Assembly: GCF_002979975.1 (NCBI RefSeq)
Contig: NZ_PCQD01000002.1
Span: 434,001-498,000, forward strand
From: Pseudomonas sp. MYb185
GTDB lineage: Bacteria; Pseudomonadota; Gammaproteobacteria; Pseudomonadales; Pseudomonadaceae
Reading direction: 5' to 3'
DNA: 64,000 bases
The notes beneath the pieces are model-generated. The model saw only the letters and a program-made list of their open reading frames with translations. It did no database searches and had not been told where the DNA came from. Shown here one piece after another: positions 18,419-62,519 of the stretch (within the stretch, counting starts at the first letter, position 1; every line of letters begins with the position of its first letter). The position numbers and the translations under genes are program-made.

Positions 18419-18442
18419 AAAAACATTTTGATTTGTTTTATT
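18419..18442. promoter_or_regulatory. Shared palindromic operator, site 1
   Basis: AAAAAC (18419-18424), 10 bp, then GTTTTATT (18435-18442). The site is 80 bp upstream of the first gene of the plus-strand operon. It is one of eight matches to the palindrome AAAAC-N10-GTTTT in this window. Binding protein inferred, not known. Confidence 0.6.
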
Positions 18443-18522
18443 GTTAAAGGTACTCTCATCAACGAATCGGAGCGCCATTTCCGCTCCACAGGGCAAAACA
18501 ATAATGCACAAGGGCCTGAACC

Positions 18523-19068
18523 ATGACACCAATCCCGAACCAGCATCACAGTCTGATTTCCCGCCTGGGCCGCATCATGCAGTTGGCCTGGGTACCCAGG
18601 GATTACGATGCCACCCTCCGCTACTGGACCGAGACCATGGGCGTAGGGCCGTTCTTTGAGCTGAACCACATCCAGGTAGACGCCTGCCATTACCGCGGTC
18701 AGCCATCCAATGTCGACTTCTCGGTCGCCATTGCCTACTGGGGCGAGATGCAGATCGAACTGGTTCGCCAACACAATGACGCTCCTTCCATCTACCAGAG
18801 CTGGTTGAAGCAGGGTCGTGAAGGTTTGCACCACATCTGTCTGATAGTAAACAGCATGACCGAAGCCCGGGCACTTTGCGCCGAGGCTGGCGCAGAGGTC
18901 ATGCAGGAAGTCTGGCTGCCCGGCGGTGGCGAAGCCATTTACGTTGATCTGGGTGGCCTTATGGTGGAGATGATCGACTTTCCGCAGGAGAGCCTGGCGG
19001 TGTTTGCCGATATGAAAGCCGCCGCTGACAGCTGGGACGGCAGCGAGCCCGTACGGGTCCTTGGCTGA
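18523..19068 (+). CDS. VOC/glyoxalase-family protein
   Basis: A 181-residue metalloenzyme-fold protein with two betaalphabetabetabeta halves. The first begins RIMQLAWVPRDYDATLRYW and the second begins LHHICLIVNSM, a layout shared with methylmalonyl-CoA epimerase-like and glyoxalase_4 proteins. Likely metal ligands are His and Glu residues in these strands. It opens the operon that contains the Lva-like trio, so an epimerase, isomerase or dehydratase acting on an acyl-CoA or oxygenated intermediate is plausible. The exact reaction is not deducible. Confidence 0.75.
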   Translation: MTPIPNQHHSLISRLGRIMQLAWVPRDYDATLRYWTETMGVGPFFELNHIQVDACHYRGQPSNVDFSVAIAYWGEMQIELVRQHNDAPSIYQSWLKQGREGLHHICLIVNSMTEARALCAEAGAEVMQEVWLPGGGEAIYVDLGGLMVEMIDFPQESLAVFADMKAAADSWDGSEPVRVLG

Positions 19069-19104
19069 CCCGAATCAGTAGAACAAACGCACGATAGAGG
19101 CAGT

Positions 19105-20166
19105 ATGAACGCTGATACCCTTTGCCCCAGCGCGACCGTGGTCCCGCCTATGGTGGATCAGGCATTACCGGCCATTGCTGGGTTTCTGAATAGCCACTTC
19201 GGTGCCCAGCATACCCGGATTATCCAGGCCAACCGTCTGTCCGGTGGTGCAATCCAGGAAAACTGGCTGTTACAGGTCGAACATCAGGGCGGTAGCCGCC
19301 CTGGTCAGCAACGCTGGGTATTACGTACAGATGCCCCCTCAAGTGTGGCCGTCAGCATGACCCGCGCCCAGGAGTTCGCGGTACTGCGCTGCGCCTTCGA
19401 GGCTGGCGCCAGAGTGCCTGAACCGCTGGTACTGTGCTCAGACCAGCGGGTGCTGGGCCGCGAGTTCTTTATCATGCAGGCTCTGGAAGGCACCGCCTTC
19501 GGGCCAAAGCTGACCCGCGATGCAGTCAACGAAGAGCAGCGCCCTGCTCTGTGCCGAGAACTGGGCGCCAGCCTCGCCAGCCTGCACCGGATCACCCCAC
19601 CGCACCCGCAGCTGGATTTCCTGCCGGCTCCTGCGGCTGACCATGCGCAGCACTGCATTGCCACCTACCGCGCCTATCTGGATACCCTCAGTGAGGGCTT
19701 TCCGGCACTGGAATGGGGGCTGCGCTGGTGCGAACTGAACCGTCCGACGTCGCTGCCTCCGCGCCTGCTGCACCGGGATTACCGCACCGGCAACTATATG
19801 GTCGCCAACGGTCAGCTCAGCGGTATTCTCGATTGGGAGTTTGCCGGCTGGGGCGACCCTCGGGAAGATATCGGCTGGTTTACCGCCCGCTGCTGGCGCT
19901 TTGCCGGGCCCCAGCGTGAAGCCGGTGGCATAGGTGAACTGGAGGACTTTTTCGATGGCTACAACAGCGTCGCGGAACTGCAGATGGACAGGGCAGCACT
20001 GACCTACTGGCAGGTCATGGCTCACCTGCGCTGGGCGATCATTGCCCTGCAACAGGCCGAGCGCTACCTCAGCGGCGGCGAGGATTCGCTGGAGCTGGCC
20101 CTGACCGGGCGCATGCTGTCCGAACTGGAACAGGAAATTCTGCTGCTGACCGGAGCCACGCCATGA
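19105..20166 (+). CDS. APH-family kinase, LvaA-like (4-hydroxyacyl-CoA kinase candidate)
   Basis: A 353-residue aminoglycoside-phosphotransferase-fold kinase. The catalytic loop HRDYRTGN (H223-N230) has D225 as probable base, and the metal-binding ILDWEF has D243. It is followed, with a 4-bp overlap, by a DUF6285 gene and then by an acyl-CoA dehydrogenase. The same trio makes up LvaA-LvaB-LvaC of Pseudomonas levulinate catabolism, where the kinase phosphorylates 4-hydroxyvaleryl-CoA. By analogy it would phosphorylate a 4-hydroxyacyl-CoA. The fold and gene order support this; the chain length and substrate do not follow from sequence. Confidence 0.8.
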   Translation: MNADTLCPSATVVPPMVDQALPAIAGFLNSHFGAQHTRIIQANRLSGGAIQENWLLQVEHQGGSRPGQQRWVLRTDAPSSVAVSMTRAQEFAVLRCAFEAGARVPEPLVLCSDQRVLGREFFIMQALEGTAFGPKLTRDAVNEEQRPALCRELGASLASLHRITPPHPQLDFLPAPAADHAQHCIATYRAYLDTLSEGFPALEWGLRWCELNRPTSLPPRLLHRDYRTGNYMVANGQLSGILDWEFAGWGDPREDIGWFTARCWRFAGPQREAGGIGELEDFFDGYNSVAELQMDRAALTYWQVMAHLRWAIIALQQAERYLSGGEDSLELALTGRMLSELEQEILLLTGATP

Positions 20167-20516
20167 ATCGTCCCTGCGCCCCCGATCTACTGGTGACCGC
20201 CCGCCAACTGCTGCTGGACGAACTGCTGCCGGCCCTGCCCCGGGAGTTGCACTACCAGGCGCGAATGATCGCCAGTGCCATGATCACCGCCGCCCGGGAC
20301 CAGCAGTTGGGCGAGAGCTGCGCTACGCAAGAGCGCCAGCAGCTGCAGGCGTTACTGGACGGGGCGGACAATACCGAGCTGCCTGCCCTGCGCAGACAAC
20401 TGGCTGCTGCCATTCGCCTGGGGCAGCTCGACCACCACCCACAGTTGCACCAGAGTCTGCGACAGATCAACCGCAGCCAACTGGCCATCAATAACCCCAG
20501 AGCGGTGCGCGACTGA
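20163..20516 (+). CDS. DUF6285 protein, LvaB-like kinase partner
   Basis: A small 117-residue helical protein that starts inside the last codons of the kinase gene (ATGA overlap). This indicates translational coupling and a tight complex. Proteins of this family (DUF6285) accompany APH-like kinases, and LvaB is needed for LvaA activity in the levulinate pathway. It has no catalytic motif of its own that I can see. The sequence is rich in Leu, Gln and Arg and has no signal peptide. Confidence 0.75.
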   Translation: MNRPCAPDLLVTARQLLLDELLPALPRELHYQARMIASAMITAARDQQLGESCATQERQQLQALLDGADNTELPALRRQLAAAIRLGQLDHHPQLHQSLRQINRSQLAINNPRAVRD

Positions 20517-20543
20517 CGCGCCTGCGCCTACAGGAGAAGTACC

Positions 20544-21704
20544 ATGGATTTCAGCCTTGACCAGGAACTGCTGGAGCTGCAACAGCGCACCCGCGAGTTT
20601 ATCACCGAACAGGTCATCCCTCTGGAATTTGATAGCCGCCAGACACCCCACGGCCCCAGCGAGGAACTGCGCAATGAACTGGTCGAGCGGGCACGCAAGG
20701 TCGGCCTGCTGACCCCACATGCCTCCCGGGAATTGGGCGGTCTGGGTCTCAGCCACAGGGCCAAGGCGATTGTCTTCGAGGAAGCCGGCTACTCGCCACT
20801 GGGTCCGATTGCGCTGCATATCCACGCCCCTGACGAGGGCAACATCCACATGCTGGAAGCCATCGCCAACGAGGCGCAGAAGGATCGCTGGCTCAAGCCA
20901 ATGGTCGATGGCCGCATCCGCTCCTGTTTCGCCATGACCGAACCCAGCCCGGGTGCTGGCTCCGACCCCTCGATGCTGGCCACCACCGCAGTACGCGATG
21001 GTGACGATTACATCCTCAATGGTCGTAAATGGTTTATTACCGGCGCCACCGGTGCCAGCGTCGCCATCATCATGGCCCGCACCGAAGACGGCAACGCTAC
21101 CATGTTCCTCAGCGATACCGACCAGCCCGGCTTCAAGGTCGAACGCATGATGGATTCGCTGGACAGCTGCTTTACCGGCGGCCACGGCGTGGTGGATATC
21201 GAGAATCTGCGGGTTCCGGCGGAAAATGTGCTGGGCGAAGTCGGCAAGGGCTTCCGTTATGCCCAGGTACGCCTGGCCCCGGCGCGCCTGACCCACTGCA
21301 TGCGCTGGCTCGGTGCCGCCCGCCGCGCCCACGATATCGCCACCGAGTATGCCCGCACCCGCGAGTCCTTCGGTCGTCCGCTGGGTGAGCATCAGGGCGT
21401 CGGTTTCATGCTCGCGGATAATGAGCTGGACCTGCATACTACCCGCCTGGCAGTGTGGCATTGCGCCTGGGTACTGGATCAGGGTGAGCGTGGCAATCTC
21501 GAATCGAGCATGGCCAAGGTACTCAGTTCCGAGGCCATCTGGCGCGTGGTGGATCGCTCGGTACAGATTCTTGGCGGCCAGGGCGTCACCGGGGAGAAGA
21601 TCGTCGAACGCATCTTCCGGGACGTGCGTCCATTCCGTATCTACGACGGTCCCAGCGAAGTGCACCGCATGAGCATTGCCAGAAAACTGCTGGCCGGCAA
21701 GTAA
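20544..21704 (+). CDS. Acyl-CoA dehydrogenase, LvaC/ACAD10-11-like
   Basis: A 386-residue acyl-CoA dehydrogenase with the usual N-terminal, middle and C-terminal domains and FAD-binding FAMTEPSPGAGSDPS near residue 130. The C-terminal end carries YDGPSEVHR (Y367-R375). Where classical enzymes have a catalytic Glu (Y-E-G-T), this has Asp, the pattern of ACAD10/11 and LvaC. Those enzymes remove phosphate from a 4-phosphoacyl-CoA and shift the hydroxyl group rather than simply oxidising. AGGAGAAG precedes the ATG. It completes the Lva-like trio. Confidence 0.85.
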   Translation: MDFSLDQELLELQQRTREFITEQVIPLEFDSRQTPHGPSEELRNELVERARKVGLLTPHASRELGGLGLSHRAKAIVFEEAGYSPLGPIALHIHAPDEGNIHMLEAIANEAQKDRWLKPMVDGRIRSCFAMTEPSPGAGSDPSMLATTAVRDGDDYILNGRKWFITGATGASVAIIMARTEDGNATMFLSDTDQPGFKVERMMDSLDSCFTGGHGVVDIENLRVPAENVLGEVGKGFRYAQVRLAPARLTHCMRWLGAARRAHDIATEYARTRESFGRPLGEHQGVGFMLADNELDLHTTRLAVWHCAWVLDQGERGNLESSMAKVLSSEAIWRVVDRSVQILGGQGVTGEKIVERIFRDVRPFRIYDGPSEVHRMSIARKLLAGK

Positions 21705-21742
21705 ACTCCGTTGCAACACCCCTGGTGTGAGGTGTTGGGCTT

Positions 21743-21781
21743 GGGCCACTGATCTTGTACTTAGTCAGTTGGCCCTTTTTT
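21743..21781 (+). terminator. Intrinsic terminator inside the catabolic operon
   Basis: A stem of 10 bp with one bulge (21743-21752 with 21765-21775) is followed by seven T residues. It lies between the acyl-CoA dehydrogenase stop and the thiolase start, only about 28 bp before the thiolase ATG. That leaves no room for a full promoter, so thiolase expression should depend on read-through. Confidence 0.72.
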
Positions 21782-21808
21782 ATTCGATTGAGCCTGAAGG
21801 TATAAGTC

Positions 21809-22996
21809 ATGACACAACGTCAGATCTATGTTGTAGGAGCAGCCCGCACCGCCATTGGCAGCTTTGGCGGTAGCCTGAAAGATAAACCCCTGACCGAGAT
21901 CGCCACCACCGCGGTCAGTGCCGCCCTGACCCGCTCCGGGGTTGATCCTGAAGCGGTCGGCCATGTGGTCATGGGCAACGTGATTCCAACCGAACCCAGG
22001 GATGCCTATCTCAGCCGGGTAGCCGCCATGGACTCGGGTATTCCCAAGGAAACCCCGGCGTTCAACGTCAACCGCCTGTGCGGCTCGGGCTTGCAGGCCA
22101 TCATCTCCGCAGCCCAGTCGATCCTGCTGGGCGATACCGATATCGCCATTGGCGGCGGCGCGGAAAGCATGAGCCGTGGCCCCTTCATCATGCCGGCCAT
22201 GCGCTGGGGTGCGCGGCTGGGCGACGCCCAGGCAGTGGATTACATGAACGGCATCCTGCACGATCCCTGGCAGCGCATCCACATGGGTGTGACCGCCGAG
22301 AACGTCGCCAAACGCTACAACATCAGCCGCGAGGCCCAGGATGAACTGGCTCTGGAAAGCCAACGCCGCGCTGCCCGCGCCCGGGCCAAAGGCTATTTCA
22401 CCGAGCAGATAGTGCCGGTGGAAATCCGCACCCGCAAGGGCGTGATCATCTTCGATAGCGACGAGCATATCCGTGAGGATGTCAGCCTGGAACAACTGGC
22501 CGGCATGAAACCGGTATTCCAGCGCGACAACGGTAGCGTCACCCCCGGCAACGCCTCCGGCCTCAACGACGGCGCCGCCGCCCTGGTACTGGCCGAAGAA
22601 CAGGCCGTCAAACGGCACAACCTGACCCCCATGGCTCGCCTGGTCGGCTATGCCCACGCCGGTGTCGAACCAGAATACATGGGTATCGGCCCGATCCCCG
22701 CCACCCGTCTGGTGCTGGAACGTACCGGTCTGAGTCTGGCAGACATTGACCTGATCGAGGCCAACGAAGCCTTTGCCGCCCAAGCCTGCGCCGTGGTGCA
22801 GGAGCTGGGGCTGAACCCGGAGATCGTCAACCCCAATGGCTCGGGCATTTCCCTCGGTCACCCAGTAGGTGCCACCGGCGCAATCATCAGCACCAAAGCC
22901 ATCTACGAGCTGCAACGCACCGGCGGACGCTATGCGCTGGTCACCATGTGCATCGGTGGCGGTCAGGGTATCGCCGCCATTTTCGAACGTGTCTGA
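21809..22996 (+). CDS. Acetyl-CoA acetyltransferase / 3-ketoacyl-CoA thiolase
   Basis: A 395-residue canonical thiolase. The nucleophile Cys91 lies in RLCGSGLQ, and the C-terminal half has GHPVGATG and the second active-site cysteine in CIGGGQG. It would carry out thiolytic cleavage of 3-ketoacyl-CoA, releasing acetyl-CoA (or propionyl-CoA from odd chains). GAAGG precedes the ATG. It sits directly after an intrinsic terminator, so it may be made at lower levels than the Lva-like trio. Confidence 0.92.
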   Translation: MTQRQIYVVGAARTAIGSFGGSLKDKPLTEIATTAVSAALTRSGVDPEAVGHVVMGNVIPTEPRDAYLSRVAAMDSGIPKETPAFNVNRLCGSGLQAIISAAQSILLGDTDIAIGGGAESMSRGPFIMPAMRWGARLGDAQAVDYMNGILHDPWQRIHMGVTAENVAKRYNISREAQDELALESQRRAARARAKGYFTEQIVPVEIRTRKGVIIFDSDEHIREDVSLEQLAGMKPVFQRDNGSVTPGNASGLNDGAAALVLAEEQAVKRHNLTPMARLVGYAHAGVEPEYMGIGPIPATRLVLERTGLSLADIDLIEANEAFAAQACAVVQELGLNPEIVNPNGSGISLGHPVGATGAIISTKAIYELQRTGGRYALVTMCIGGGQGIAAIFERV

Positions 22997-23029
22997 AATC
23001 CATCCAGGATATAGCAGGAGAATAACAAC

Positions 23030-23884
23030 ATGAGCATTCGTACCGTTGGCGTGATTGGCGCCGGTACCATGGGCAACGGCATCGCCCAGGTCTGCGCCGC
23101 AGCCGGCTTCCAGGTCACTCTGGTCGATATCAACGAGGCAGCACTGGAACGTGCTCTGCAGACCATCGATCGCAGCCTTGATCGGCTGGTACAGAAGGAA
23201 AAACTGGGTAGCGAAGACAAGCAGCAGGCGCTGGGCAATATCCGCACCACCACCGAGCTGGCGGCACTGGAATCCGCTGACCTGGTAATCGAGGCCGCTT
23301 CCGAAGCGGAACCGGTCAAACTGTCGCTGATCCGTCAAATCGATGAGATCGTCTCCGCGCAGGCAATCATCGCCACCAACACCTCCTCCATCTCCATCAC
23401 CCGTCTGGCGGCGGCCAGCAACAATCCGGAGCGGGTGATCGGTATGCACTTCTTCAACCCTGTGCCGGTCATGGCACTGGTCGAGCTGATTGGCGGTCTG
23501 CAGACCAACGAAGCCACTCGTCAGGCTGCCACCGAGTTTGTCAGTGACATCCACAAGACCGCCATCACTGTGCGCAACAGTGCCGGTTTTGCGGTCAACC
23601 GCATTCTGGTGCCGATGATCAACGAAGCCGTGTTCGTACTGCAGGAGGGGATCGCCAGTGCGGAGGATATCGACCTGGGCATGCGCCTGGGCTGCAGCCA
23701 TCCGATCGGTCCACTGGCGCTGGCCGACCTGATTGGCCTGGATACTCTGCTGGCGGTGATGGATGTGTTCTATACCAGCTTCAACGACAGCAAATACCGC
23801 CCTGCCCCGCTGCTGCGGGAAATGGTCGAAGCGGGCTACCTTGGTCGCAAGAGCGGTCAGGGCTTCTACCACTACCCGGCCTGA
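23030..23884 (+). CDS. 3-hydroxyacyl-CoA dehydrogenase (3-hydroxybutyryl-CoA type)
   Basis: A 284-residue NAD(P)-dependent enzyme that oxidises 3-hydroxyacyl-CoA to 3-ketoacyl-CoA. The N-terminal Rossmann motif is GAGTMGNGIAQ, followed by the catalytic region GMHFFNPVPVM and the C-terminal helical domain. It is single-function and of typical length. It lies between thiolase and enoyl-CoA hydratase genes with AGGAG-type ribosome sites, so the three form a complete late beta-oxidation set. Confidence 0.93.
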   Translation: MSIRTVGVIGAGTMGNGIAQVCAAAGFQVTLVDINEAALERALQTIDRSLDRLVQKEKLGSEDKQQALGNIRTTTELAALESADLVIEAASEAEPVKLSLIRQIDEIVSAQAIIATNTSSISITRLAAASNNPERVIGMHFFNPVPVMALVELIGGLQTNEATRQAATEFVSDIHKTAITVRNSAGFAVNRILVPMINEAVFVLQEGIASAEDIDLGMRLGCSHPIGPLALADLIGLDTLLAVMDVFYTSFNDSKYRPAPLLREMVEAGYLGRKSGQGFYHYPA

Positions 23885-23928
23885 GTGCCGGGTAGTTCCA
23901 TGACCAGCTCAATGAAAAGGAGAGAGCC

Positions 23929-24690
23929 ATGTCTGATGCGCCCTTGACCCTGGAGCGTTCCGGCAAACTGCTGCACCTGCAATTCAACCGCCCGGCCTCG
24001 CTGAATGCCATCGACAGCGCCATGGCCGAGGCCTTCCTCGGTGCAGTCACCGAGGCTGTGGCGGATGATGCAATTCGCGTCATCATCCTCAGCGGCGCCG
24101 GACGCTCGTTCATGGCCGGAGGGGATATCGCCCAGTTCAGCCGTGATCCAGGCAGCATTCCGGACAGCCTAATCGAACCGATGAACAAGGCCATCCTGCT
24201 GCTCAGTGGTAGCGACAAGCTGGTGCTGGGTAGCGTGCAGGGGCCAGTCGCCGGTGCCGGCATGAGCCTGGCACTGGTCTGCGACCTGCTGATTGCCGCG
24301 GACAATACCCGCTTCAGCTTTGCCTATACTGCGCTGGCCGCCAGTGGCGATCTGGGTATCAGCTGGAGCCTGCCGCGCCTGCTGGGCCTGCGTAACGCCA
24401 TGGGCGTGGCGCTGCTGGGCGACAGCATCAAGGCCGATGAAGCGCAACGTCTCGGGCTGGTCAATCGGGTAGTAGCCGCAGAACAGCTGGCAGAACAAAC
24501 GCTGAACCTGGCCAACCAGCTGGCGGAACTACCGGCACTGGCCAGCGCCAGCATCAAGCGACTGATGCAGGCCGCAGTGCAACAGGACCTGGGCAGCCAG
24601 CTGGCCGCCGAGAAACAGGCCTTCAGCCAATGCATCGAGCAACCGGAGTTCCACACCGCCGTTGCCGGATTCCTGGCCAAACGCAAGTAG
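23929..24690 (+). CDS. Enoyl-CoA hydratase/isomerase family protein (PaaG-like)
   Basis: A 253-residue crotonase-fold protein. The oxyanion-hole segments are AGGDIAQF near residue 65 and GPVAGAGMSLAL near residue 107. Where a true hydratase has the second catalytic Glu, this has D141 in SGDLGISWSLPR. That matches the PDGG-x-SW-x-LPR pattern of PaaG-type isomerases more than that of hydratases. It is therefore likely to shift a double bond or open a strained ring in a CoA ester, with hydratase as the alternative. Last gene of the plus-strand operon. Confidence 0.82.
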   Translation: MSDAPLTLERSGKLLHLQFNRPASLNAIDSAMAEAFLGAVTEAVADDAIRVIILSGAGRSFMAGGDIAQFSRDPGSIPDSLIEPMNKAILLLSGSDKLVLGSVQGPVAGAGMSLALVCDLLIAADNTRFSFAYTALAASGDLGISWSLPRLLGLRNAMGVALLGDSIKADEAQRLGLVNRVVAAEQLAEQTLNLANQLAELPALASASIKRLMQAAVQQDLGSQLAAEKQAFSQCIEQPEFHTAVAGFLAKRK

Positions 24691-24793: not shown

Positions 24794-25684
24794 CTACCCT
24801 CCGCTTCCAGCCGCCCGCCTTGCCCTCGGCTGCCACTGGTGCAGCAACAGTCCCAGGCCAATCAGCAGTGCGCCAAACCACACACCGGGCGGCAATTGCT
24901 CGGCATTGAACAGCTTGCCCACCACCAGCGCCAGCAGGGGTGTAATCACCAGAATCAACGCCACCGATGCCGAACTCATATGGCGGATGATGTAGTAGTA
25001 CATGGCAAAGCCCACTACCGAGCCGAGCACGCCCAGATAGGCAATCGACAGGCTGGCGCGCAGGCTCAGTTGCGCTGGCCAGCCTGCATCATCGAAGCAC
25101 CACAGCAGCAGGAACAGCGGCGCCGCCACCAGCAGAGAACCAGTGGTGGTAGCCATGGGATGGCTATCATCGGCAATCACCTTCATACCGACCAGTGAAG
25201 CGGAGTTGCACACCACGCCGAGCAGCAGGGCCACGACGCCGGCGGCAAAGCCCGCATGCAAGCTCAGACCCTGATCGAGAAACACCACGCCCAATCCAGC
25301 CAGGCCAAGCAGCATGCCCGATAGTCGGGCCGGACTGAAGCTGTTCTCCCCCAGCCACCAGGCCGCCAGCGCACTGGTCATCAAGGGCGACAATCCAAAG
25401 ATCACCGACATCAAGCCTGATTCAATACGGGTAGAAGCCCAATAGACACAGCTCATGGCAAGAAAGATTCCCAGACCCGCGCAGCAATAGCTGCGCAGTG
25501 CCTGGGCATGCAAGGGTAGAGGAATACGCCAGAGCACCAGTACCAGCAGCGCACAGATCAGCGCCATGAGCATGCGCAGCATGGCGGCAAAGCTGAAGCT
25601 GCTATCCAGCGTCCCCCACTGAATCGCCAGCGGGGTGGTGGCCCAGATGGCGACTACCCCAAGATAGGCCAGTGACACCGGCAT
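24794..25684 (-). CDS. EamA/DMT-family membrane transporter
   Basis: A 296-residue inner-membrane protein with ten predicted hydrophobic segments in two EamA repeats, typical of drug/metabolite transporters. It starts 7 bp after the reductase gene ends, so it is the last gene of the operon led by the DUF35/thiolase pair. A role in export or import of a pathway intermediate is plausible. The family is too broad to name the substrate. Confidence 0.85.
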   Translation of the reverse strand: MPVSLAYLGVVAIWATTPLAIQWGTLDSSFSFAAMLRMLMALICALLVLVLWRIPLPLHAQALRSYCCAGLGIFLAMSCVYWASTRIESGLMSVIFGLSPLMTSALAAWWLGENSFSPARLSGMLLGLAGLGVVFLDQGLSLHAGFAAGVVALLLGVVCNSASLVGMKVIADDSHPMATTTGSLLVAAPLFLLLWCFDDAGWPAQLSLRASLSIAYLGVLGSVVGFAMYYYIIRHMSSASVALILVITPLLALVVGKLFNAEQLPPGVWFGALLIGLGLLLHQWQPRARRAAGSGG

Positions 25685-25691
25685 GGGCAGA

Positions 25692-26660: not shown

Positions 26661-26671
26661 GATTTCATCCG

Positions 26672-28318: not shown

Positions 28319-28341
28319 TATTGTTACCCCACTGGACAATC

Positions 28342-30675: not shown

Positions 30676-30682
30676 AGACGAA

Positions 30683-51580: not shown

Positions 51581-52051
51581 TCACTCATTCCCCATCCCCC
51601 CTTCCCGCACCCGTTTACAAGCTTGATCAAGACCTTTGAACATCAGCCCATAGGCAGCCCGCAAGAAGATCTCAGCCTCTTGGGCCCGACCAGGCTGGGT
51701 AGTAAATTCACTACAGTAGTTTAAACAGCAACGATCACCAGGCAGCGAGCTTATCCAGCCGGTCGCCTGATAGGACAACAATCCCGCAGGGCGCTCCCCC
51801 ACAATGGAAAGCTTGTAGCTAAGACTTTCTGAGTCCTGGAAATCCAGACGTTCGCTAACCGCACCAGGAAAGCCCCGGTTGTAAATGTGACGGATCTGGC
51901 CAATGCCTTCCCCTTCGAGTTCCACACGCTCGATCACCACTATCTCGTCATCGGTGGGCCACCAGCGTTGGATGTTAGCGAAGTCGGCCAGCAACGCCCA
52001 GACCGTAGCAGCCGACCCGTTTAGTTCCTGATGAGTTTCTATGCGCAGCAT
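51581..52051 (-). CDS. SRPBCC (polyketide cyclase/START-like) protein
   Basis: A 156-residue helix-grip-fold protein that can bind or act on a hydrophobic ligand in its cavity. The ATG at 52051 has GGAGG 8 bp upstream, and a TTG five codons earlier is rejected. It begins with MLRIETHQELNGSAATVWALL, the typical start of the fold. Last gene of the unit with MDR 2, DUF1329 A and SDR 3. Possible roles are cyclase, dehydratase or carrier. None is certain. Confidence 0.8.
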   Translation of the reverse strand: MLRIETHQELNGSAATVWALLADFANIQRWWPTDDEIVVIERVELEGEGIGQIRHIYNRGFPGAVSERLDFQDSESLSYKLSIVGERPAGLLSYQATGWISSLPGDRCCLNYCSEFTTQPGRAQEAEIFLRAAYGLMFKGLDQACKRVREGGMGNE

Positions 52052-52106
52052 AGAGGAGTCCTCCAAAAGACAAAGGGTGGAAAATTAGGCGTCTAAAGCT
52101 GTCGAC

Positions 52107-52820: not shown

Positions 52821-52858
52821 GAGAACCTCACATTTCGTAGAAGTTTGCATAAAGGGAT

Positions 52859-52878
52859 GAGGCGCCCGTGAGCGCCTC
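52859..52878 (-). terminator. Hairpin after DUF1329 gene A
   Basis: A perfect 7-bp stem (52859-52865 with 52872-52878) with a 6-nt loop, 10 bp past the DUF1329 stop and inside the operon. On the minus strand it is followed by ATCCCTTT. It could separate strong expression of the envelope gene from the enzymes behind it. Confidence 0.5.
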
Positions 52879-52888
52879 GGTCGGCTAT

Positions 52889-54262: not shown

Positions 54263-54327
54263 TAGTCAGACTCCACTCTTGTTGTTGTAGTCACGGTATT
54301 ACCCGTGTGTGCTTCGATCCTGCAAAG

Positions 54328-55394: not shown

Positions 55395-55418
55395 AAAAAC
55401 CAGCAAGATGGTTTTTAA
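55395..55418. promoter_or_regulatory. Shared palindromic operator, site 6
   Basis: AAAAAC (55395-55400), 10 bp, GTTTTTAA (55411-55418). It is 47 bp upstream of the MDR reductase 2 start. It is one of the two sites with the most symmetric arms (AAAAAC with GTTTTT). Confidence 0.65.
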
Positions 55419-55498: not shown

Positions 55499-57163
55499 TT
55501 AGCTTAGCGAGGCTGTCGTCTTGCCCCATGCCTGGTCAGGCTGCATACGCTCCGGCTCCGGATCTTGAATAAGGTCCGCCGCTCGCCACCCCAGCGCCAT
55601 GGCCGGACCGTTGGTATTGGCGGACACCAGCTCAGGCATCACCGAACAGTCCGCGGCGCGCAGTCCCTGAACACCACGGACACGCAAGTGTTCATCTACG
55701 ACGGACTCAGAATCCCGCCCCATGCGGCAGCTGCCTACGGCATGGGTACCGCACAGAGAGGCAGTACGAAAATAATGCAGGATGTCTTCATCCGACTGGC
55801 ACTGTGTCCCTGGTACCAGCTCCTCGCCAACGTATTCAGATAGTGCCGGCTGGCGCATGTAGCGACGCATATAGTGAACCATGGCCACTGCTGCCCGGCG
55901 ATCAGCTTCGGTAGACAGCCAGTTCGGCGTGATCTCCAGCGGTGCATCAGGATCTGCGGACTGGATCAGTACGGTTCCCTCGCTCTCGAGATTCAGCAAC
56001 TGCCCATAGATGGTTATGCCGGGCTTATCCTCGACCCCATCCGGCACTGGGAAGTTGTCTTCGCTGCGAGGATAGGTGAATGCGCTGAGATACAGTTGTG
56101 CGTCAGGCCGGGCCAGATGCGGCTGGGTACGAAAGAAGGCACCCACCTCGAACGGTCCAGTCGCCATCGGCCCACTACGGGTGGTGTAATATTGAAGCAG
56201 GCTACCTGCCAAGCCGAGGCCCTGGAAACGATGATTCAGTCCCTTCGTCCCCTTCAGTCGATACGGCAACAGGAATCCCAGGTGATCGCGCAGATGCCGG
56301 CCGACATCGCGGTTGCTTGCCACCATGGCGATGCCCAACGGAACGAGATGGTCGGGATCACCGATACCCGACAACTGCAGAATTTTCGGTGTCAGGATAG
56401 CCCCAGCGCAAAGAATGACTTCACCATGGCAACCGAACTCGCATGGCTGCCCTTTCACGTTTGCTCGCACGCCCACTGCCCGCAGACCATCGAACAGCAC
56501 CTGCTCAACCTTGGCGCTGGTCTGAACCACAAGGTTCTTGCGCGACATTACCGGATGCAGAAAAGCGGTGGCAGCGCTAACCCGACGACCGTTCTTGATC
56601 GTATGGCTGTAATAGCCAACCCCTTCCTGGCGCTCGCGGTTGAAGTCCTCCACCCGTGGCAACCCCATCTCCTCGCCAGCGCTTACCATGGCCTCGCTAG
56701 CCGGATAACGGAACTTCCCAGTACTGATATGCAGTGGCCCACCCGCGCCGCGGAGCTCATCGGCGCCCAGCTCGTGGTCCTCAATAGCACGGAAGGCATT
56801 CTTCATTGCAGTCCAGCCCCATTCAGGTCCGGCCTTTTGTTCCCAGCGCTGATAATCTTCGGGCTGACCACGCACATAAATCATGCCATTAATCGAGCTG
56901 GAACCACCGACTACCTTACCGCGCACCCACATTTCGGCAGATTCGGTGTCAGGAAAGCGTGGCTGCTGTACTGGAAAATGCCAGGCGTGTCTGGGATCAC
57001 TGACCAGCTTGGCGATACCCTTAGGCATCGTTACCAGCGGACTGCGGTCCCACTCTCCAGCCTCCAGAAGCAGCACTCGCTTCGATGGATCGGCAGACAG
57101 CCGGTTAGCCAATACGCAGCCGGTGGAGCCTGCGCCCACAATAATGTAATCGTAAGTAGTCAT
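55499..57163 (-). CDS. GMC-family oxidoreductase
   Basis: A 554-residue FAD enzyme of the glucose-methanol-choline family. The N-terminal IIVGAGSTGCVLANRL binds FAD. The GMC signature GGSSSINGMIYVRGQPEDY lies near residue 85, and the C-terminal active site has THAVGSCRMG (catalytic His) and the NTNGPAM segment with Asn. It would oxidise a primary or secondary alcohol of the substrate. It is last in its operon. Close relatives are choline- and alcohol-dehydrogenase-like proteins with varied substrates. Confidence 0.9.
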   Translation of the reverse strand: MTTYDYIIVGAGSTGCVLANRLSADPSKRVLLLEAGEWDRSPLVTMPKGIAKLVSDPRHAWHFPVQQPRFPDTESAEMWVRGKVVGGSSSINGMIYVRGQPEDYQRWEQKAGPEWGWTAMKNAFRAIEDHELGADELRGAGGPLHISTGKFRYPASEAMVSAGEEMGLPRVEDFNRERQEGVGYYSHTIKNGRRVSAATAFLHPVMSRKNLVVQTSAKVEQVLFDGLRAVGVRANVKGQPCEFGCHGEVILCAGAILTPKILQLSGIGDPDHLVPLGIAMVASNRDVGRHLRDHLGFLLPYRLKGTKGLNHRFQGLGLAGSLLQYYTTRSGPMATGPFEVGAFFRTQPHLARPDAQLYLSAFTYPRSEDNFPVPDGVEDKPGITIYGQLLNLESEGTVLIQSADPDAPLEITPNWLSTEADRRAAVAMVHYMRRYMRQPALSEYVGEELVPGTQCQSDEDILHYFRTASLCGTHAVGSCRMGRDSESVVDEHLRVRGVQGLRAADCSVMPELVSANTNGPAMALGWRAADLIQDPEPERMQPDQAWGKTTASLS

Positions 57164-57173
57164 AACTGGGTCC

Positions 57174-57935
57174 TCAAAAGGTGCTCATGCCACCATCAGC
57201 GGTATAGAGGGAGCCGGTGACGTATGAGGCCTCCGGCGAGAGCAGGAAGGCGATCACCGCAGCAATCTCCTCCGGCTCGGCATAGCGTCCGAGCGGAGTG
57301 GCGGCGCGGTTGGCAGCTGCGGTGGCCGTCGCGTTGCCAGAGTCACGTTCGATGCGACGCATCATCTCTGTGTTGATCGCCCCCGGCAGTACCGCATTAA
57401 CCCGTACGCCGACGTCGGCCGCCTCTGCTGCGGCGGTACGAGTCAGGCCGATCACGGCGTGCTTGGACATGACGTAGGCACCATGGGTGGGTGCTCCCAT
57501 GATTCCAGCCAAGGACGACAGGTTGACGATCGCTCCGCTGCCTTGACGGCGCATCACTTGCAAAACATGTTTTAGGCCAAGGAAAACGCCGCGAACATTG
57601 ACCATGTAGACCCGGTCAAGCATCTCCACCGACTGCGCCTCAATCAAAGCCGGTGCACCTTCAATACCTGCATTGTTGGCGAAGGCGTCGATCCTTCCGA
57701 AGCGTTCGAGGGCAGCAGCGACGTAACGCTTCACGTCGTCCTCGCAGGATACATCGGCGGATATCAATAGGATGCGTGCCGGATCGAGGCTGCCCTCCTT
57801 TGCAGCTCTTTCCAATGCGGCCTGATCCAGGTCCACCAGCACGATCCGGTAACCCTGCCTCTGCAGATGCCGGGTCAGGGCCAGACCTATTCCTCCGGCG
57901 GCACCAGTGATCACCGCGACAGGTGCATCAGACAT
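57174..57935 (-). CDS. SDR 4
   Basis: A 253-residue SDR with TGAAGGIG near residue 10, NNAG near residue 87, catalytic Ser in VNLSSLAG and YVMSK. It is intact. The ATG at 57935 overlaps the stop of MDR 3 by 8 bp and has GGGAG upstream, so the two are translationally coupled. It may reoxidise the alcohol formed after double-bond reduction by MDR 3, or the reverse. The GMC gene is 10 bp away. Confidence 0.87.
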   Translation of the reverse strand: MSDAPVAVITGAAGGIGLALTRHLQRQGYRIVLVDLDQAALERAAKEGSLDPARILLISADVSCEDDVKRYVAAALERFGRIDAFANNAGIEGAPALIEAQSVEMLDRVYMVNVRGVFLGLKHVLQVMRRQGSGAIVNLSSLAGIMGAPTHGAYVMSKHAVIGLTRTAAAEAADVGVRVNAVLPGAINTEMMRRIERDSGNATATAAANRAATPLGRYAEPEEIAAVIAFLLSPEASYVTGSLYTADGGMSTF

Positions 57936-59010
57936 GGGTAGGCTCCCGAGCAGCAGCGCGAATCTCTTCAATCGTCGGTGCTGGCTCCGAAGGATCGCGC
58001 ACCTTAACCATCAACTTGCCTCTATTGGCGCCAGTGAACAGACGAGAGAAGGCATCGAGAGTATTCTCCAGCCCCTCGACGATATCCTCGGCGAATATCA
58101 GCCGACCATCGGCAATCCAGGTACTCATCTCCTCAATGCCTTCGCCAAAACGATCCTTGAACTCGGGCGAGATGAAACCTCGCACGGTGAGACTACGAGC
58201 AAGGATCTGCCAATAGTTGAACGGCCCCGGCACCGGCTGCTCGGTGTTGTACTGGGCAATGGCACCACAGAACACAACACGGCCAAAATTGTTCATGTTC
58301 AATAACGCCGCATCGAGTACCTCACCGCCAACATTGTCGAAGTAGCAGTCGATCCCGTTCGGACAGACCTCGGCGATGGTCTTGGCCAAATTTTCGCTAG
58401 TCTTGTAATTGATCGCATAGTCGTAACCCAACTCCTCGACAATCCAGCGGCATTTTTCGTCACTACCGACCAAACCCACCGTGCGGCAGCCTTTTATTTT
58501 AGCGATCTGGCCAGCCAAGGAACCCACCGCCCCCGCAGCGGCGCTCACCAGCATCGTTTCACCCTGCTTCGGCTTGCCGATGTCCAGTACACCAAAGTAA
58601 GGCGTTAGCCCTACCGCACTGAAGACACTCAGGTAATGACTGAGGGGAAAGCGGGAATAGGGCTGGATGTGGTCGAGTTGCTCGCCAGCCGTCAGGCTGA
58701 AGTCCTCCCAGCCGTTGGCCGCAAGCCCGACGACAATGTCACCAATCTGAAAATCCGGGTGACGACTCTCCACTACCCGCCCCAACGTAGAACTCCGCAC
58801 AACCTCCCCTAGAGCGATGGGTGGCATGTAACTAGGCTTGTCGCTCATCCAGCCACGAATTGCAGGGTCCATCGACAGATATAAATTCTGCAATAAAACC
58901 TGCCCCGGACCGGGACGAGACAAAGAAACACTGCGCATGCGTACATTTTTCTCGTTGGGCACACCTTCGGGTCGAGACTCCAGATAGAGCTGGCGGTTGA
59001 GCAAAGTCAT
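57928..59010 (-). CDS. MDR-family NADP-dependent enone reductase 3
   Basis: A 360-residue zinc-free MDR reductase. It has the same motifs as copies 1 and 2 (YLSMDPAIRGWM, AAAGAVGSLAGQIAKIKG, GSDEKCRWIVEELG) plus about 20 extra C-terminal residues. AAGGAT precedes the ATG. By family it reduces C=C bonds conjugated with a carbonyl. It shares longer identical stretches with copy 2 in the cofactor region, so that duplication may be the later one; an alignment is needed to confirm. Confidence 0.88.
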   Translation of the reverse strand: MTLLNRQLYLESRPEGVPNEKNVRMRSVSLSRPGPGQVLLQNLYLSMDPAIRGWMSDKPSYMPPIALGEVVRSSTLGRVVESRHPDFQIGDIVVGLAANGWEDFSLTAGEQLDHIQPYSRFPLSHYLSVFSAVGLTPYFGVLDIGKPKQGETMLVSAAAGAVGSLAGQIAKIKGCRTVGLVGSDEKCRWIVEELGYDYAINYKTSENLAKTIAEVCPNGIDCYFDNVGGEVLDAALLNMNNFGRVVFCGAIAQYNTEQPVPGPFNYWQILARSLTVRGFISPEFKDRFGEGIEEMSTWIADGRLIFAEDIVEGLENTLDAFSRLFTGANRGKLMVKVRDPSEPAPTIEEIRAAAREPTHV

Positions 59011-59097
59011 GAAGTTATCCTTTTTTCTTATTCAGATTCGTTATTCAGGAAAGCACCAGGGTTCGCACCTGAAGAATCACGCTACTTCCCGGCCCAC

Positions 59098-59850
59098 TCA
59101 GACCGCTGTCCAGCCACCGTCCACCGTCATCAAACTACCGTGCATGAACGAAGCGCCATCGGAGGCAAGCCATAGGACTGCGTTCACCACCTCATCGATC
59201 TCACCCAGCCGCCCAGCCGGATGCAATGCCAGTAACTTCGGCTCTATCTCGTCCAGTTGGGGATGGTTGTTGAGCATGGCAGTACGGATCACTCCAGGAC
59301 AAACCGCGTTAATGCGAATGTTCTGTCGTCCGTACTCGATGGCCGCAGTCTTGGTCAGTCCTGCTACCGCATGCTTTGTAGCGGTGTACGGGGCCGATCC
59401 AGGCAAAGCAGTGATCGATAAGGCCGAAGCCGTATTGATCAAGACTCCCCCGCCCTGCTTGAGCATCTGTCCAATCGAGTACTTCATGCACAGCCAGACT
59501 GCTTTCAGGTTGACTGCAATAATCTGATCGAACTCGGCCTCAGCCACCTCAGCGACGAAGTCATTCCCCCCGCTGATGCCGGCGTTGTTATGCACAATAT
59601 CCAACCGACCAAAGCGCTGGACAGTCTCGTTGATCAGCGTTTGCATTTGCTCGGCCGAGGCGACGTCTAGGCAAAAGAATGCGGCTTCACCGCCCGCAGA
59701 CTCGATTTCAGCCAGCCGCTGCTTGCCTTGTTCAATATTGATATCGGCCAGCATCACCTTTGCACCCTCACGGGCGAAGGCTGCCGCAGTTCCTGCTCCG
59801 ATGCCACCACTGGCACCGGTAACCAGTACTACTTTGTCTTTGAATTGCAT
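59098..59850 (-). CDS. SDR 5
   Basis: A 250-residue SDR with TGASGGIG near residue 11, NNAG near residue 88, catalytic Ser in INTASALS and YTATK. It is intact, with AAGGAG before the ATG. It is one of three SDRs in this operon. The spacer to MDR 3 (59011-59097) is AT-rich and holds no gene. Confidence 0.88.
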   Translation of the reverse strand: MQFKDKVVLVTGASGGIGAGTAAAFAREGAKVMLADINIEQGKQRLAEIESAGGEAAFFCLDVASAEQMQTLINETVQRFGRLDIVHNNAGISGGNDFVAEVAEAEFDQIIAVNLKAVWLCMKYSIGQMLKQGGGVLINTASALSITALPGSAPYTATKHAVAGLTKTAAIEYGRQNIRINAVCPGVIRTAMLNNHPQLDEIEPKLLALHPAGRLGEIDEVVNAVLWLASDGASFMHGSLMTVDGGWTAV

Positions 59851-59971
59851 GCTGTGCTCCTTATTGTTATTGCTACAGCAGTTTTACGTGACAGAGCCCG
59901 GATGACGTTCTGATGTACCCGGCTTGATGCTCATTGGGAAGGCAGCTTCAAGTTTATGCAGCCCCTCTTTC

Positions 59972-60772
59972 TTAATTGCTGGGCTTCGCCGCCATTGCCT
60001 TTTCTACCGCAGCGCCGACATCTGCACCGGTGGGATTACTACGCAGCAGCAAACCGCCGTTGACCTGAAGATTTTCCCCAGTCATGAAGCACTCATCGCA
60101 GGCGAGCCACACCGCAGCGGCGGCAATATCTGCTGTGGTACCAATGCGGCCCAGTGGGTAACGCGCCGTAAAGCATTCGCGAACCCCAGGCGTAGCCATG
60201 GCCTCAGCGGTCATTGGAGTCTCGGTCAATCCGGGGGAAATGCTGTTGGCGCGAATGCCGCGGCTACCGAATTCATTGGCAACGCAGCGCATCACATGGT
60301 CGATGCCACCCTTTGTGCCAATATAAGCTGCGTAGTTCTCAATCACCGCACGGGTGGTTGCGGAGCTGATTTGAATGATCGAGCCACCCTCCTTCATTCC
60401 TTCAATCACCGCCTGAAAGAAAAAGAACGGCCCCTTGAACTGCAGAGCAATCATTTTCTCCAATTCTTGCTCACCTGTTTCCAGAAAGCCTTGCGTCAAC
60501 CCCCAACCGGCGCAGTTGACTGCCACGTCCAACCGTCCACCCCACTCTCTGGCATGAGCGACGGCCGCGTTCAACTCGGCCTTCGACGTGATATCGCAGG
60601 CCACATGGGTTCCACCGATTTCCTGGGCGAAACGTGCCGCTTCATCACCATCGCGACCGGAAATCACCAATCGGGCCCCTTCATTTGCGAAGCGGCGAGC
60701 GATGTCCTGCCCCATATTGTCACGGCTATCAGCACCCAGTATCAGGGCAATCTTGTTCTCAAGTCGTTTCAT
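59972..60772 (-). CDS. SDR 6
   Basis: A 266-residue SDR with an unusual cofactor motif GADSRDNMGQD near residue 13, in which the last glycines differ from TGxxxGxG. The catalytic Ser in IQISSATT and YIGTK are intact. NCAG replaces NNAG. It could use a different cofactor mode, similar to enoyl-reductase-type SDRs. The ATG at 60772 is preferred over a TTG at 60781. It heads the operon, with operator site 7 about 87 bp upstream. Confidence 0.83.
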   Translation of the reverse strand: MKRLENKIALILGADSRDNMGQDIARRFANEGARLVISGRDGDEAARFAQEIGGTHVACDITSKAELNAAVAHAREWGGRLDVAVNCAGWGLTQGFLETGEQELEKMIALQFKGPFFFFQAVIEGMKEGGSIIQISSATTRAVIENYAAYIGTKGGIDHVMRCVANEFGSRGIRANSISPGLTETPMTAEAMATPGVRECFTARYPLGRIGTTADIAAAAVWLACDECFMTGENLQVNGGLLLRSNPTGADVGAAVEKAMAAKPSN

Positions 60773-60859
60773 CAAATACAACTCCGGAATGACAGAATTC
60801 GTTTCTAAAAAGCCAGCAATCCCCGCAGTAGCAGCGCATTAGGGCCTTGGGGACTAAAA

Positions 60860-60883
60860 ATAAACAATCAATATAGTTTGTTT
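60860..60883. promoter_or_regulatory. Shared palindromic operator, site 7
   Basis: ATAAAC (60860-60865), 10 bp, GTTTGTTT (60876-60883), followed by TTTATG. It is the least regular of the eight sites. It lies 87 bp upstream of the SDR 6 start, inside the AT-rich 232-bp spacer 60773-61004. Confidence 0.48.
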
Positions 60884-60968: not shown

Positions 60969-60997
60969 TTGCGCACTCTTTCGCCAAGAGTGCGCAA
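60969..60997 (-). terminator. Terminator of DUF1329 gene B
   Basis: A perfect 12-bp stem (60969-60980 with 60986-60997) with a 5-nt loop, 7 bp after the DUF1329 B stop codon. The minus-strand tail is AATAATAG rather than a T run. It also insulates the next operon's promoter. Confidence 0.7.
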
Positions 60998-61004
60998 GTC
61001 TCGA

Positions 61005-62369
61005 TTATCTAACCCCACCACCACTCATGGCTTGAGGAGTAAAAAAGTTCATTGGCTTGGGCTCAATATCATGCCATCCGGAACGGCCAGTAGAATAGGC
61101 TTGCCGCGCATAGGCTCCACTTGCTAGGTCATGTGTAATGAACTGACCGCTGATGTGTCCATAGCTTTCATATTTAGGAAAGCTTTCCGAGTGCACAACC
61201 CGATAGACGGAGCCTGTATTATCATATGCGGAACTCATCCCGACTCCCAGAAAATCCTCATCCCAATAGAGGGTGCGTCGCGGATAGATATGGCGCTTTC
61301 CTGATTTCAACGTTGCCTCCACTACCCATACACGATGCAACTCCCAACGTACACAGTCAGGGTTGGCAAAATTCTTGGTAAATACCTGCTCGCGACCACA
61401 CTGCTCCGCATCGTACATTTTGAACATGTTATAAGGTATATACACTTCTCTCTTTCCAACCAGCTCAAAGTCATAGCGATCAAAAGCGCCATAAAAAACG
61501 GAGGAGTCATCCACAGTGCCTATACCAGCACCCGCCGGCGATGGCGTATCGTAAGCTACATCAGGAGATAGCTTGACCCTCCGCTGGCCCGGCAAGTAGC
61601 TCCAGGCACGACGAGCATTGGTTAACATATTCAAAGAGTCATGAATGACCAGCTTTTCACCTGACTTGCGCGCTGGAGAGTCATAATCAGCACGCAATAT
61701 CTCATTGATTTCGTCTCCCTTCAGGAGATCCGTACGGCTGGGATCCCACAACGGATACTGGTTCCACTGAGTTTGCCCTGCCGTATCGATCACCGTTCCT
61801 GAACCATCAACAATGGTGGTTTTCAAGTCCTGACTCATGAACGCATGACCTTCATACTTCATGTACCGATTCCACATCACTTCACTACCGTTCTGGGGAA
61901 TCGGAAAAGGCGTGCCAGCCCAGCACCCTTTCAACTGCAATCCATCTTCTATAAGAGTACAGCTGGTTGCATTCTTCTTGGCGTTGGCCAAATAGTGCTC
62001 GGGATAGCGGGCTGTTCTATGGGTTGGGTAAACATTGATTTTGAAGTCCGGGTACTTCTCGAACAGCGCCAGCGCCCCAGAAGTCAAACGTTCCTGATGC
62101 TCCTTGTAATTGCTCGCATCTATGGTGAAGAGCGCCTGCTCATCTGCGAAGGGATCTGGTCGTATCCCCGGCCGGCCCGGGTCATAACTGCTCGGCGGCT
62201 GTATTCCACCAGTATACGCAGGAATGGTGCCATCGGCATTACCAGCCTGCTCCGCCCCCCATAGAGTCAGATTGTTCCCTAATTGACGGGCTTCCTCCTC
62301 CGAGACTGCAGCCATGGCTTGGCCACCTATCATCATGCACAATGCCAAAGGTAAGTATTTTGTTTTCAT
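61005..62369 (-). CDS. DUF1329 exported protein B
   Basis: A 454-residue paralog of DUF1329 A with signal peptide (residues 1-20, cut after AMA) and the hallmark LTLWGAEQAGNADGTIPAYTGG. Later blocks (YPTHRTARYPEHY, AWSYLPGQRRVKLSPDVAYDTPSPAG) match protein A closely. It is alone between a hairpin and operator site 8. GAAGGA precedes the ATG. Two separately controlled copies suggest different partner proteins or a dosage need in envelope transport. Confidence 0.86.
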   Translation of the reverse strand: MKTKYLPLALCMMIGGQAMAAVSEEEARQLGNNLTLWGAEQAGNADGTIPAYTGGIQPPSSYDPGRPGIRPDPFADEQALFTIDASNYKEHQERLTSGALALFEKYPDFKINVYPTHRTARYPEHYLANAKKNATSCTLIEDGLQLKGCWAGTPFPIPQNGSEVMWNRYMKYEGHAFMSQDLKTTIVDGSGTVIDTAGQTQWNQYPLWDPSRTDLLKGDEINEILRADYDSPARKSGEKLVIHDSLNMLTNARRAWSYLPGQRRVKLSPDVAYDTPSPAGAGIGTVDDSSVFYGAFDRYDFELVGKREVYIPYNMFKMYDAEQCGREQVFTKNFANPDCVRWELHRVWVVEATLKSGKRHIYPRRTLYWDEDFLGVGMSSAYDNTGSVYRVVHSESFPKYESYGHISGQFITHDLASGAYARQAYSTGRSGWHDIEPKPMNFFTPQAMSGGGVR

Positions 62370-62495
62370 AATTATTCCTTCACCTAATAATCCAGATTTC
62401 TACAGCCTGATTGATCTAAATCCCGCTCCGAATCCGAGTCGGATCACGTCAGTCGGCACTTACGCCCCACGCTATAGCAGATTAGCGCGCAAAAT

Positions 62496-62519
62496 AAAAA
62501 CCATCTTGATCGTTTTTAT
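62496..62519. promoter_or_regulatory. Shared palindromic operator, site 8
   Basis: AAAAAC (62496-62501), 10 bp, GTTTTTAT (62512-62519). It is 126 bp upstream of the DUF1329 B start. Its arms are fully symmetric (AAAAAC with GTTTTT). Confidence 0.65.

Follow-up and report, generated by a model that had tools for sequence, protein, structure and literature searches.

Pseudomonas sp. MYb185 carries a large catabolic gene cluster in which one short palindrome, AAAAC-N10-GTTTT, stands ahead of successive predicted transcription units. We analyzed this cluster in a stretch of 64,000 nucleotides (hereafter the window; positions 434001-498000 of contig C12 in the 4.1 Mb genome G000) and compared it with related genomes; G000, G003, G009, G016, G024 and others denote Halopseudomonas genomes. 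We put the probability at about 85% that the palindrome is the operator of a TetR-family regulator encoded within the cluster (33787-34503, minus strand), which would act as one local repressor for about 54 genes in 11 units. This reading is drawn from sequence comparison, and the totals were counted by gene adjacency and direction. An earlier note on this DNA had proposed a single regulator for about 35 genes; its idea of a regulator is supported here, but its estimate of size was too low.

Copies of the palindrome and their specificity

Exact copies of AAAAC-N10-GTTTT begin at 18420, 38456, 41647, 51493, 55396 and 62497 of the window. These six compare with a mean of 0.01 and a maximum of 1 in 200 Markov-1 resamplings of the window, and among spacers of 0 to 30 none besides 10 yields more than one exact copy. 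Two further copies are less perfect: the one at 33740 reads TAAAC..GTTTT (one mismatch) and the one at 60861 reads TAAAC..GTTTG (two mismatches). The earlier note had listed eight copies of AAAAC-N10-GTTTT(T)A, and all eight places are present, although each begins one base to the right of the position given and only six are exact. With up to two mismatches allowed, the window holds 32 matches against 9.15 expected, a count reached in none of 100 shuffles. Three more exact copies lie beyond the window, at C12:503473, 508017 and 509290.

The gap between a site and the first open reading frame (ORF) behind it ranges from 20 bp (33740) to 127 bp (62497), where 19-126 bp had been noted before; for 38456 this requires a start codon that lies past the mechanical TTG start at 38502. 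The site at 41647-41666 abuts the end of the ORF 41666-43141, which agrees with the overlap described for this copy. The further claim that no other copy lies inside an operon holds for the strong sites, but a weak copy at 36405 falls inside unit 3 and a match with one mismatch at 49465 sits within the RND gene.

To rank the sites genome-wide, we used a sequence-only model, R1, built from 30 hand-picked sites of G003, G016 and G024 (1 of 31 was dropped) and searched at E<=10, with 150 of the 508-1783 first-look candidates per genome scored. In G000, R1 returned 14 rows, 12 of them on 10 of the 11 cluster sites (best rows 15.6-24.4 bits); the two places outside the cluster scored 13.4 and 10.5 bits, below all 10 cluster sites. 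Thus, with a matrix trained on other genomes, 10 of the 11 sites outrank every other place in the genome. On the scale of our own scoring script, the same division appears as 28.0-38.3 for 10 of the 11 main sites and 20.2 for 60861. Across 12 of the 32 cluster-free congeners, R1 gave seven matches in total, the best at 15.1 bits, and in G009, which carries part of the cluster, it gave two matches at 20.6 bits. An exact 17-letter pattern produced 11 rows in G000, 8 each in G003 and G024, and 3 each in G016 and G009; each of the 32 others produced 0-3. When the 20-bp pattern AAAAC-N10-GTTTT was used instead, six of eight places in G016 fall in its cluster region (contig C1, 92.8-150.0 kb). Near matches at C12:5307, C27:82416, C28:157023 and C29:58820 were set aside, as they lie within or beside other genes and are not in the R1 list.

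We then compared gene order and sites in four clusters (G000, G003, G016 and G024). Eight unit types have, in all four genomes, a site ahead of them with no more than one mismatch, namely those of VOC/APH, DUF35-thiolase, E1-E2-TetR, SnoaL, YCF48-RND, DUF1329 (61005), DUF1302 and the last SDR. At some sites, operator 4 among them, the gene upstream is not the same in every genome, yet the site remains attached to its unit. The unit 6 site is present in G000 and G024; in G016 the first gene lies within a longer run and has no site directly ahead of it. Unit 7 has a site with one mismatch in G024 and a degenerate one in G000, and operator 9 was seen in G000 only, where the neighboring gene order differs.

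From arm matches across the four clusters, 42 sites were picked by hand. In these, the AAAC and G.TT positions are invariant, and in the interior, which was not selected for, a C/G pair occurs in 30 of the 42 sites; the gene-oriented consensus is approximately AAAAC(A/G)ATCTGGTTGGTTTT. The matches left out were 49465 in G000; 22650, 44824 and 60115 in G016; and 4533, 75702, 90821, 98830 and 109022 in G024. The one at 90821 is exact and stands at the start of a Cache-domain gene just outside the cluster, and the others have one mismatch each, most of them falling within genes or beyond the cluster. A second catabolic gene set, with SnoaL-like, SDR, DUF1329 and MDR-like members, occurs on another contig of G024 (G024:C34; L115 9629-14674), and the site heading it has a 20-bp core equal to that of G000 operator 4 on the gene strand.

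The TetR regulator, the island and relatives beyond the genus

The TetR protein matches the TetR_N helix-turn-helix (HTH) family PF00440 (E 1e-14, 54.5 bits against a cut-off of 24). Its structure model is all-helical with a mean pLDDT of 88.4, and in the fold comparison it was matched best by TetR-family or putative regulators. In a phmmer search of PDB sequences, the best relative reached E 8e-07 in the HTH region, and no close solved relative was found there. The inverted repeats stand at unit starts, as TetR-family operators do, which is consistent with TetR binding at these places. No other regulator gene was recognized inside the island, though not all of the approximately 54 genes were scanned against the family library.

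Three lines of evidence support the earlier proposal that this one TetR gene is the regulator: its co-occurrence with the cluster in the genus, a shared island, and the recurrence of the operator beside distant relatives. Within the genus, a marker Rieske gene (E<=1e-60) was detected in 5 of 37 genomes and the TetR gene (E<=1e-20) in four, all among those five. The fifth marker genome, G009, was assembled in about 510 contigs. Its marker contig, at 3079 bp, could not extend to a TetR gene with the placement seen in the other genomes, and its sites are on other short contigs.

The cluster, its 11 sites and the TetR gene form one extra block, from window position 18270 to G000:C12:509485. Homology to the genome G008 stops at 18270 and restarts at L001 11485, so that the block measures at most 57.2 kb. 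In G008 and G036, which have neither the marker Rieske gene nor TetR, about 170 bp (168 and 174 bp between matches) separate the Cache-domain gene found left of the first site from the LysR gene found right of the last. The two empty-site stretches of G008 and G036, 2.4 kb each, contain no match even with up to two mismatches. In Pseudomonas linyingensis (L126 668), a match with exact arms stands about 80 bp upstream of a LysR gene that is 63% related to the LysR gene flanking the island.

Relatives of the regulator beyond the genus were retrieved with the peptide patterns WQA[EQ]KS[HA]L and RGAM[TL]HHF, a procedure that favors conserved HTH residues. Close relatives (47-70% identity) were found at 15 loci (L021-L034 and L040) in Pseudomonas, Zoogloea, Thauera, Pseudoduganella and related bins. 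The order E1a-E1b-E2-SDR-TetR is kept in 13 of these 15 loci, and DUF35, thiolase and Rieske genes directly follow the TetR set in 11. Matches with at most one mismatch precede both the E1a and the DUF35 gene in 8 of the 15, precede one of them in 3 and lie beside TetR in 2; no such match was found in the remaining two (L032 and L033). In Zoogloea oleivorans (L035) and Pseudoduganella rivuli (L032), a second, diverged TetR copy lies on the same contig as the closer one, and in Z. oleivorans sites occur at both TetR loci, so that two paralogues may share one operator. In Thauera linaloolentis C72 (L123 6429), a site on a separate contig heads relatives of the SDR, SnoaL-like and VOC-like genes of the window.

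More distant relatives, about 32-41% identical by best segment, were found at 62 loci (L035-L097 without L040) and scanned with a matrix derived from the Halopseudomonas sites at a score of at least 15. The scan yielded 115 sites in 54 of the 62 loci, against one in reversed sequence, and no site at this score in the other eight. Predicted ORFs exclude 89 of the 115 sites (19% for random points), and 90 of the 115 are near an ORF start (29% for random points). Many are nearer to a perfect palindrome, such as AAAACAGTCATGACTGTTTG. In 14 distant loci that were inspected, Rieske, ThuA-like, SDR, E1/E2, DUF35 and thiolase genes recur nearby in differing subsets. When 61 distant TetR proteins were compared with the window protein, residues 24-86 were 54% identical and residues 87-230 were 23% identical. 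The operator recurs in loci titled Halieaceae, Luminiphilus and Steroidobacteraceae, and in Alphaproteobacteria such as Aurantiacibacter. Some bins carrying the TetR family are titled Kuenenia, Rhizobium, Planktophila or Klebsiella (L059, L060, L062, L070 and L095), and these titles may mismatch the contigs.

We tentatively propose, at slightly less than even odds, that a TetR subfamily of alpha-, beta- and gammaproteobacteria kept one operator code (approximately AAAC-A-N-T-C-N2-G-A-N-T-GTTT) even as identity in its ligand domain fell to about 23%, and that it marks an undescribed, widespread oxygenase and thiolase/retro-aldolase pathway for hydrophobic cyclic compounds. If so, operator scanning alone could list pathway genes in uncultured marine and soil bacteria.

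Proposed repression by TetR and its alternatives

In the proposed mechanism, TetR, as one dimer or a pair of dimers, would occupy the 20-bp site, whose arm centers are about 15 bp apart, when no inducer is present and block RNA polymerase at 11 promoters, so that about 54 genes would be silenced together within a single island no larger than about 57 kb. TetR would be released by an inducer, either the substrate itself, probably a hydrophobic cyclic or aromatic compound, or an intermediate formed early in its breakdown. Genes for export, ring oxygenation, CoA activation, beta-oxidation and thiolase- or retro-aldol-type cleavage would then be co-induced. TetR, whose gene closes unit 3 and is itself preceded by a weak site, would also repress itself.

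Candidate promoters were scored against E. coli-type boxes by consensus. At unit 1, a candidate -35 box TTGATT lies inside the operator and a -10 box TACTCT lies 17 bp downstream, at +31; the pair is kept in all four genomes, although it is not the top-scoring candidate in G000 (second-best by score) or in G003. Unit 4 has a similar arrangement, with a candidate TTGACT inside the operator, a spacing of 18 bp and TATGGT in G000, and across all four genomes with TTG(A/T)(C/A)T inside the operator and the -10 box at +32. At unit 3, a candidate TTGCTG-17-TAGAAT in G000 (TTGC(T/C)G across genomes) ends 5 bp before the core; its offsets are equal in three of four genomes, and the -35 box of G024 is shifted one base further. 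At unit 11, TTGT(C/G)A-17-TAnnTT is found in all four genomes, and the site directly follows the likely -10 box. An operator that holds the likely -35 box (units 1 and 4) or stands just past the likely -10 box (units 3 and 11) would hinder the polymerase, which favors repression. No clear conserved promoter was found at the remaining site families.

The palindrome might instead be the site of another regulator encoded elsewhere, with TetR controlling at most its own operon. The link between TetR and the sites is a predicted one, a LysR gene adjoins the last site, and the genome has further TetR-like genes (four weaker matches). However, the LysR gene is also present in the cluster-free genomes G008, G021 and G036 (7 of 21 genomes searched have it), of which G008 and G021 gave a single weak match apiece to R1 (11.7 and 13.3 bits, respectively), and the motif is found with the TetR subfamily also where the surrounding gene set is a different one, so that we consider control by another regulator improbable. 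Some TetR-family proteins activate, and the palindrome could serve to recruit an activator, either TetR or another protein, as the shared factor; several site families have no clear promoter, as this would allow. It is a very unlikely explanation given the polymerase-hindering positions of the site at units 1, 3, 4 and 11. Slighter still is the chance that the copies are a dispersed repeat or a promoter sequence served by no dedicated regulator. The arms are A/T-rich and stand at promoters, and loose matches are no more common genome-wide than in the backward control; yet sites at the level of the matrix are restricted to the cluster, no comparable set exists in the 12 cluster-free congeners searched, and the distance to the likely -10 box varies between units.

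Several observations weigh against repression of the whole cluster by TetR. AAAACN10GTTTTTA with up to two mismatches is not enriched genome-wide (45+40 = 85 matches against 44+49 = 93 in the backward control), and we therefore place weight only on close matches. Operator 7 (60861) is near background, scoring 9.3 bits locally and absent from the genome-wide R1 list, and the exact 17-letter count of G016 is no higher than that of some cluster-free genomes. The conservation of the arms partly reflects selection because the arms were the search key for the hand-picked training sites; the interior is not fully palindromic, with pairs 8/13 and 10/11 complementary in 7 and 5 of the 42 sites. No single promoter offset is common to the 14 site families, and the best family means (0.47 at +18 and 0.44 at -2) fall on the A/T-rich arms. 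The 62 distant loci, which were fetched by TetR peptide patterns, include many close relatives of one another, and a factor that travels with TetR may account for the sites at these loci. An exact AAAAC-N10-GTTTTTA also occurs outside the cluster, at C27:41394 (L003 position 4397), between two divergent genes that we take to be folB- and plsY-like. The same letters were found only in G003 and G009 among 58 genomes searched, both close cluster-bearing relatives, and the match is not in the R1 list of G000. We take it to reflect common descent of an unrelated stretch, but it may alternatively be a minor site.

Predicted units, gene content and comparison with known systems

Operator 1 (18420-18439, plus strand) is exact, identical over 20 bases in all four clusters, and heads unit 1 (18523-24690, plus strand). 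Its seven ORFs encode a VOC-like protein, an APH-family kinase, a small ORF product, and acyl-CoA dehydrogenase-like, thiolase-like, 3-hydroxyacyl-CoA dehydrogenase-like and enoyl-CoA hydratase-like proteins, where the VOC, thiolase and hydroxyacyl-CoA dehydrogenase labels are our presumptive assignments. The other units in the window and their operators are on the minus strand. Operator 2 (33740-33759, one mismatch) is flanked by the TetR stop and the DUF35-like gene, stands 20 bp ahead of the ORF start at 33719, and precedes the eight ORFs of unit 2 (24794-33719): DUF35/ChsH2-like, SCP2-type thiolase-like, Rieske oxygenase, two acyl-CoA dehydrogenase-like, CoA ligase, ferredoxin reductase-like and a presumably EamA-like protein. 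Operator 3 (38456-38475, exact) heads unit 3 (33787-38502), whose five ORFs encode 2-oxoacid dehydrogenase E1 alpha, E1 beta and E2, an SDR and, last, the proposed repressor TetR, with its PF00440 domain and TetR-type predicted fold.

Two weaker copies, both unreported by R1 at E<=10, fall in the same unit. The one upstream of TetR (34575-34594, minus strand), which the earlier note had also seen, scores 17.8 by script and 12.8-22.6 across the four genomes. The other, at the E1beta-E2 boundary (36405-36424, minus strand), scores 20.3-21.2 in all four and is identical across them except for its last base; it may be an internal operator or reflect coding conservation.

Operator 4 (41647-41666, exact) heads unit 4 (38536-41555), with four ORFs for two SnoaL-like, a Rieske oxygenase-like and a VOC-like protein. 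Operator 5 (51493-51512, exact) heads the eight ORFs of unit 5 (41666-51455), which encode YCF48-like, RND (MMPL/HAE3-like), ThuA-like, SDR (46135), GST-like (45493), MDR reductase-like (44430), Rieske oxygenase and FAD dehydrogenase-like proteins; the SDR, GST and MDR labels are ones we assume. Operator 6 (55396-55415, exact) heads unit 6 (51581-55347; four ORFs: MDR reductase-like, DUF1329, SDR and polyketide-cyclase-like). Operator 7 (60861-60880), degenerate with two mismatches, is the weakest of the set, with scores close to those of the weak copies, and precedes unit 7 (55499-60781; five ORFs: three SDRs, an MDR reductase-like and a GMC oxidoreductase-like protein). Operator 8 (62497-62516) is exact, with 8 of 10 pairs complementary in the 20-bp core, and precedes unit 8 (61005-62369), a DUF1329 protein. 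Unit 9 lies partly in the window (62586-63976) and extends beyond it; operators 9, 10 and 11 are the exact copies beyond the window (G000:C12:503473, 508017 and 509290).

The cluster thus holds several Rieske oxygenases, SDRs, a CoA ligase, an SCP2-type thiolase with its DUF35 partner and a 2-oxoacid dehydrogenase, and its acyl-CoA dehydrogenase pair is closest to pimeloyl-CoA dehydrogenase models. From this content, the 11 units probably serve to oxidize and export a hydrophobic, cyclic compound. No gene by itself points to a particular substrate, and the majority of NCBIfam matches of cluster proteins score under curated cut-offs. Steroids were considered and remained unconfirmed, as the KstD-like and Rieske matches are at family level only and steroid-dehydrogenase models score far below their cut-offs. 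All 45 records of plasmid relatives of the Rieske protein showed less than 60% identity (best listed 43.2%, in a region that is unannotated).

We found no matching description of the operator strings, gene set or regulator in the literature, in a search that was broad rather than subfamily-specific and covered few subscription papers; for the operator strings this applies to the 15 papers listed out of 1,347, whose titles also point to other topics. The accessible part of a Zoogloea oleivorans paper gave no description of the cluster (PMC7012976). PheR was discarded as a relative, being of the unrelated IclR type according to the available text (PMC13273656).

Among known systems, one similarity is to the mycobacterial repressors KstR and KstR2. 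These are TetR-family repressors of a large cholesterol cluster, many of whose units have a short palindrome in front, with a KstR motif of TNNAACNNGTTNNA. Here, likewise, one putative TetR-family repressor and one short palindrome precede many units of a large cluster for a probably hydrophobic compound, and KstR with DNA is among the fold matches of the TetR model (5fmp, TM 0.48 by query length). The motif spacing differs when compared by eye, none of the 46 PDB sequences in the phmmer listing bears the name KstR, and, unlike in KstR regulons, no steroid-specific gene is proven in the cluster. The ipf genes for ibuprofen group a Rieske oxygenase, a CoA ligase, an SCP2-type thiolase and a DUF35 protein. 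The present cluster resembles them in this gene content, but within a far larger set that includes 2-oxoacid dehydrogenase, ThuA-like and SnoaL-like proteins.

On the export side, DUF1302, DUF1329, YCF48-like and MMPL-type RND components are all present, with PF06980, PF07044, PF14870 and PF03176 above gathering scores; the RND protein best matches TIGR00921 (HAE3) at E 5e-45, with 153.8 bits against a cut-off of 351.9. The available description of AmeABCD in the monoterpene island of Castellaniella defragrans lists DUF1302, DUF1329, COG4447 photosystem-II-assembly-like and HAE3 RND proteins (PMC6394551). Matching families thus occur in a catabolic island in both cases, here in units under the palindrome. 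In contrast to the four-gene AmeABCD cassette, as described there, they are spread over units 5, 6, 8, 9 and 10 with three DUF1329 copies, and of the four exporter-type genes only the YCF48-like and RND genes adjoin.

For the estradiol cluster of Caenibius tardaugens, the accessible text describes EdcR, a TetR-type repressor, with the palindrome TnnCnnTACnAnTnGTAnnGnnA at four promoters, overlapping the -10 box (PMC8700777). The reading of a TetR-type repressor with a palindrome at cluster promoters is alike in both, whereas the palindrome letters differ and EdcR, in that text, has four promoters in one smaller cluster.

Our results provide a concrete, testable candidate operator for a TetR subfamily in which we found no described member, and they delimit a putative regulon of about 54 genes. 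The operator could be used to tie oxygenases, DUF1302/DUF1329 proteins and thiolases of undefined role to one pathway, and knowledge of the inducer would further allow a biosensor to be built. In its type, a TetR regulator with a shared operator, the system is an ordinary one alongside those above; what looks new is the operator at the level of a subfamily and its tie to a pathway in several proteobacterial classes.

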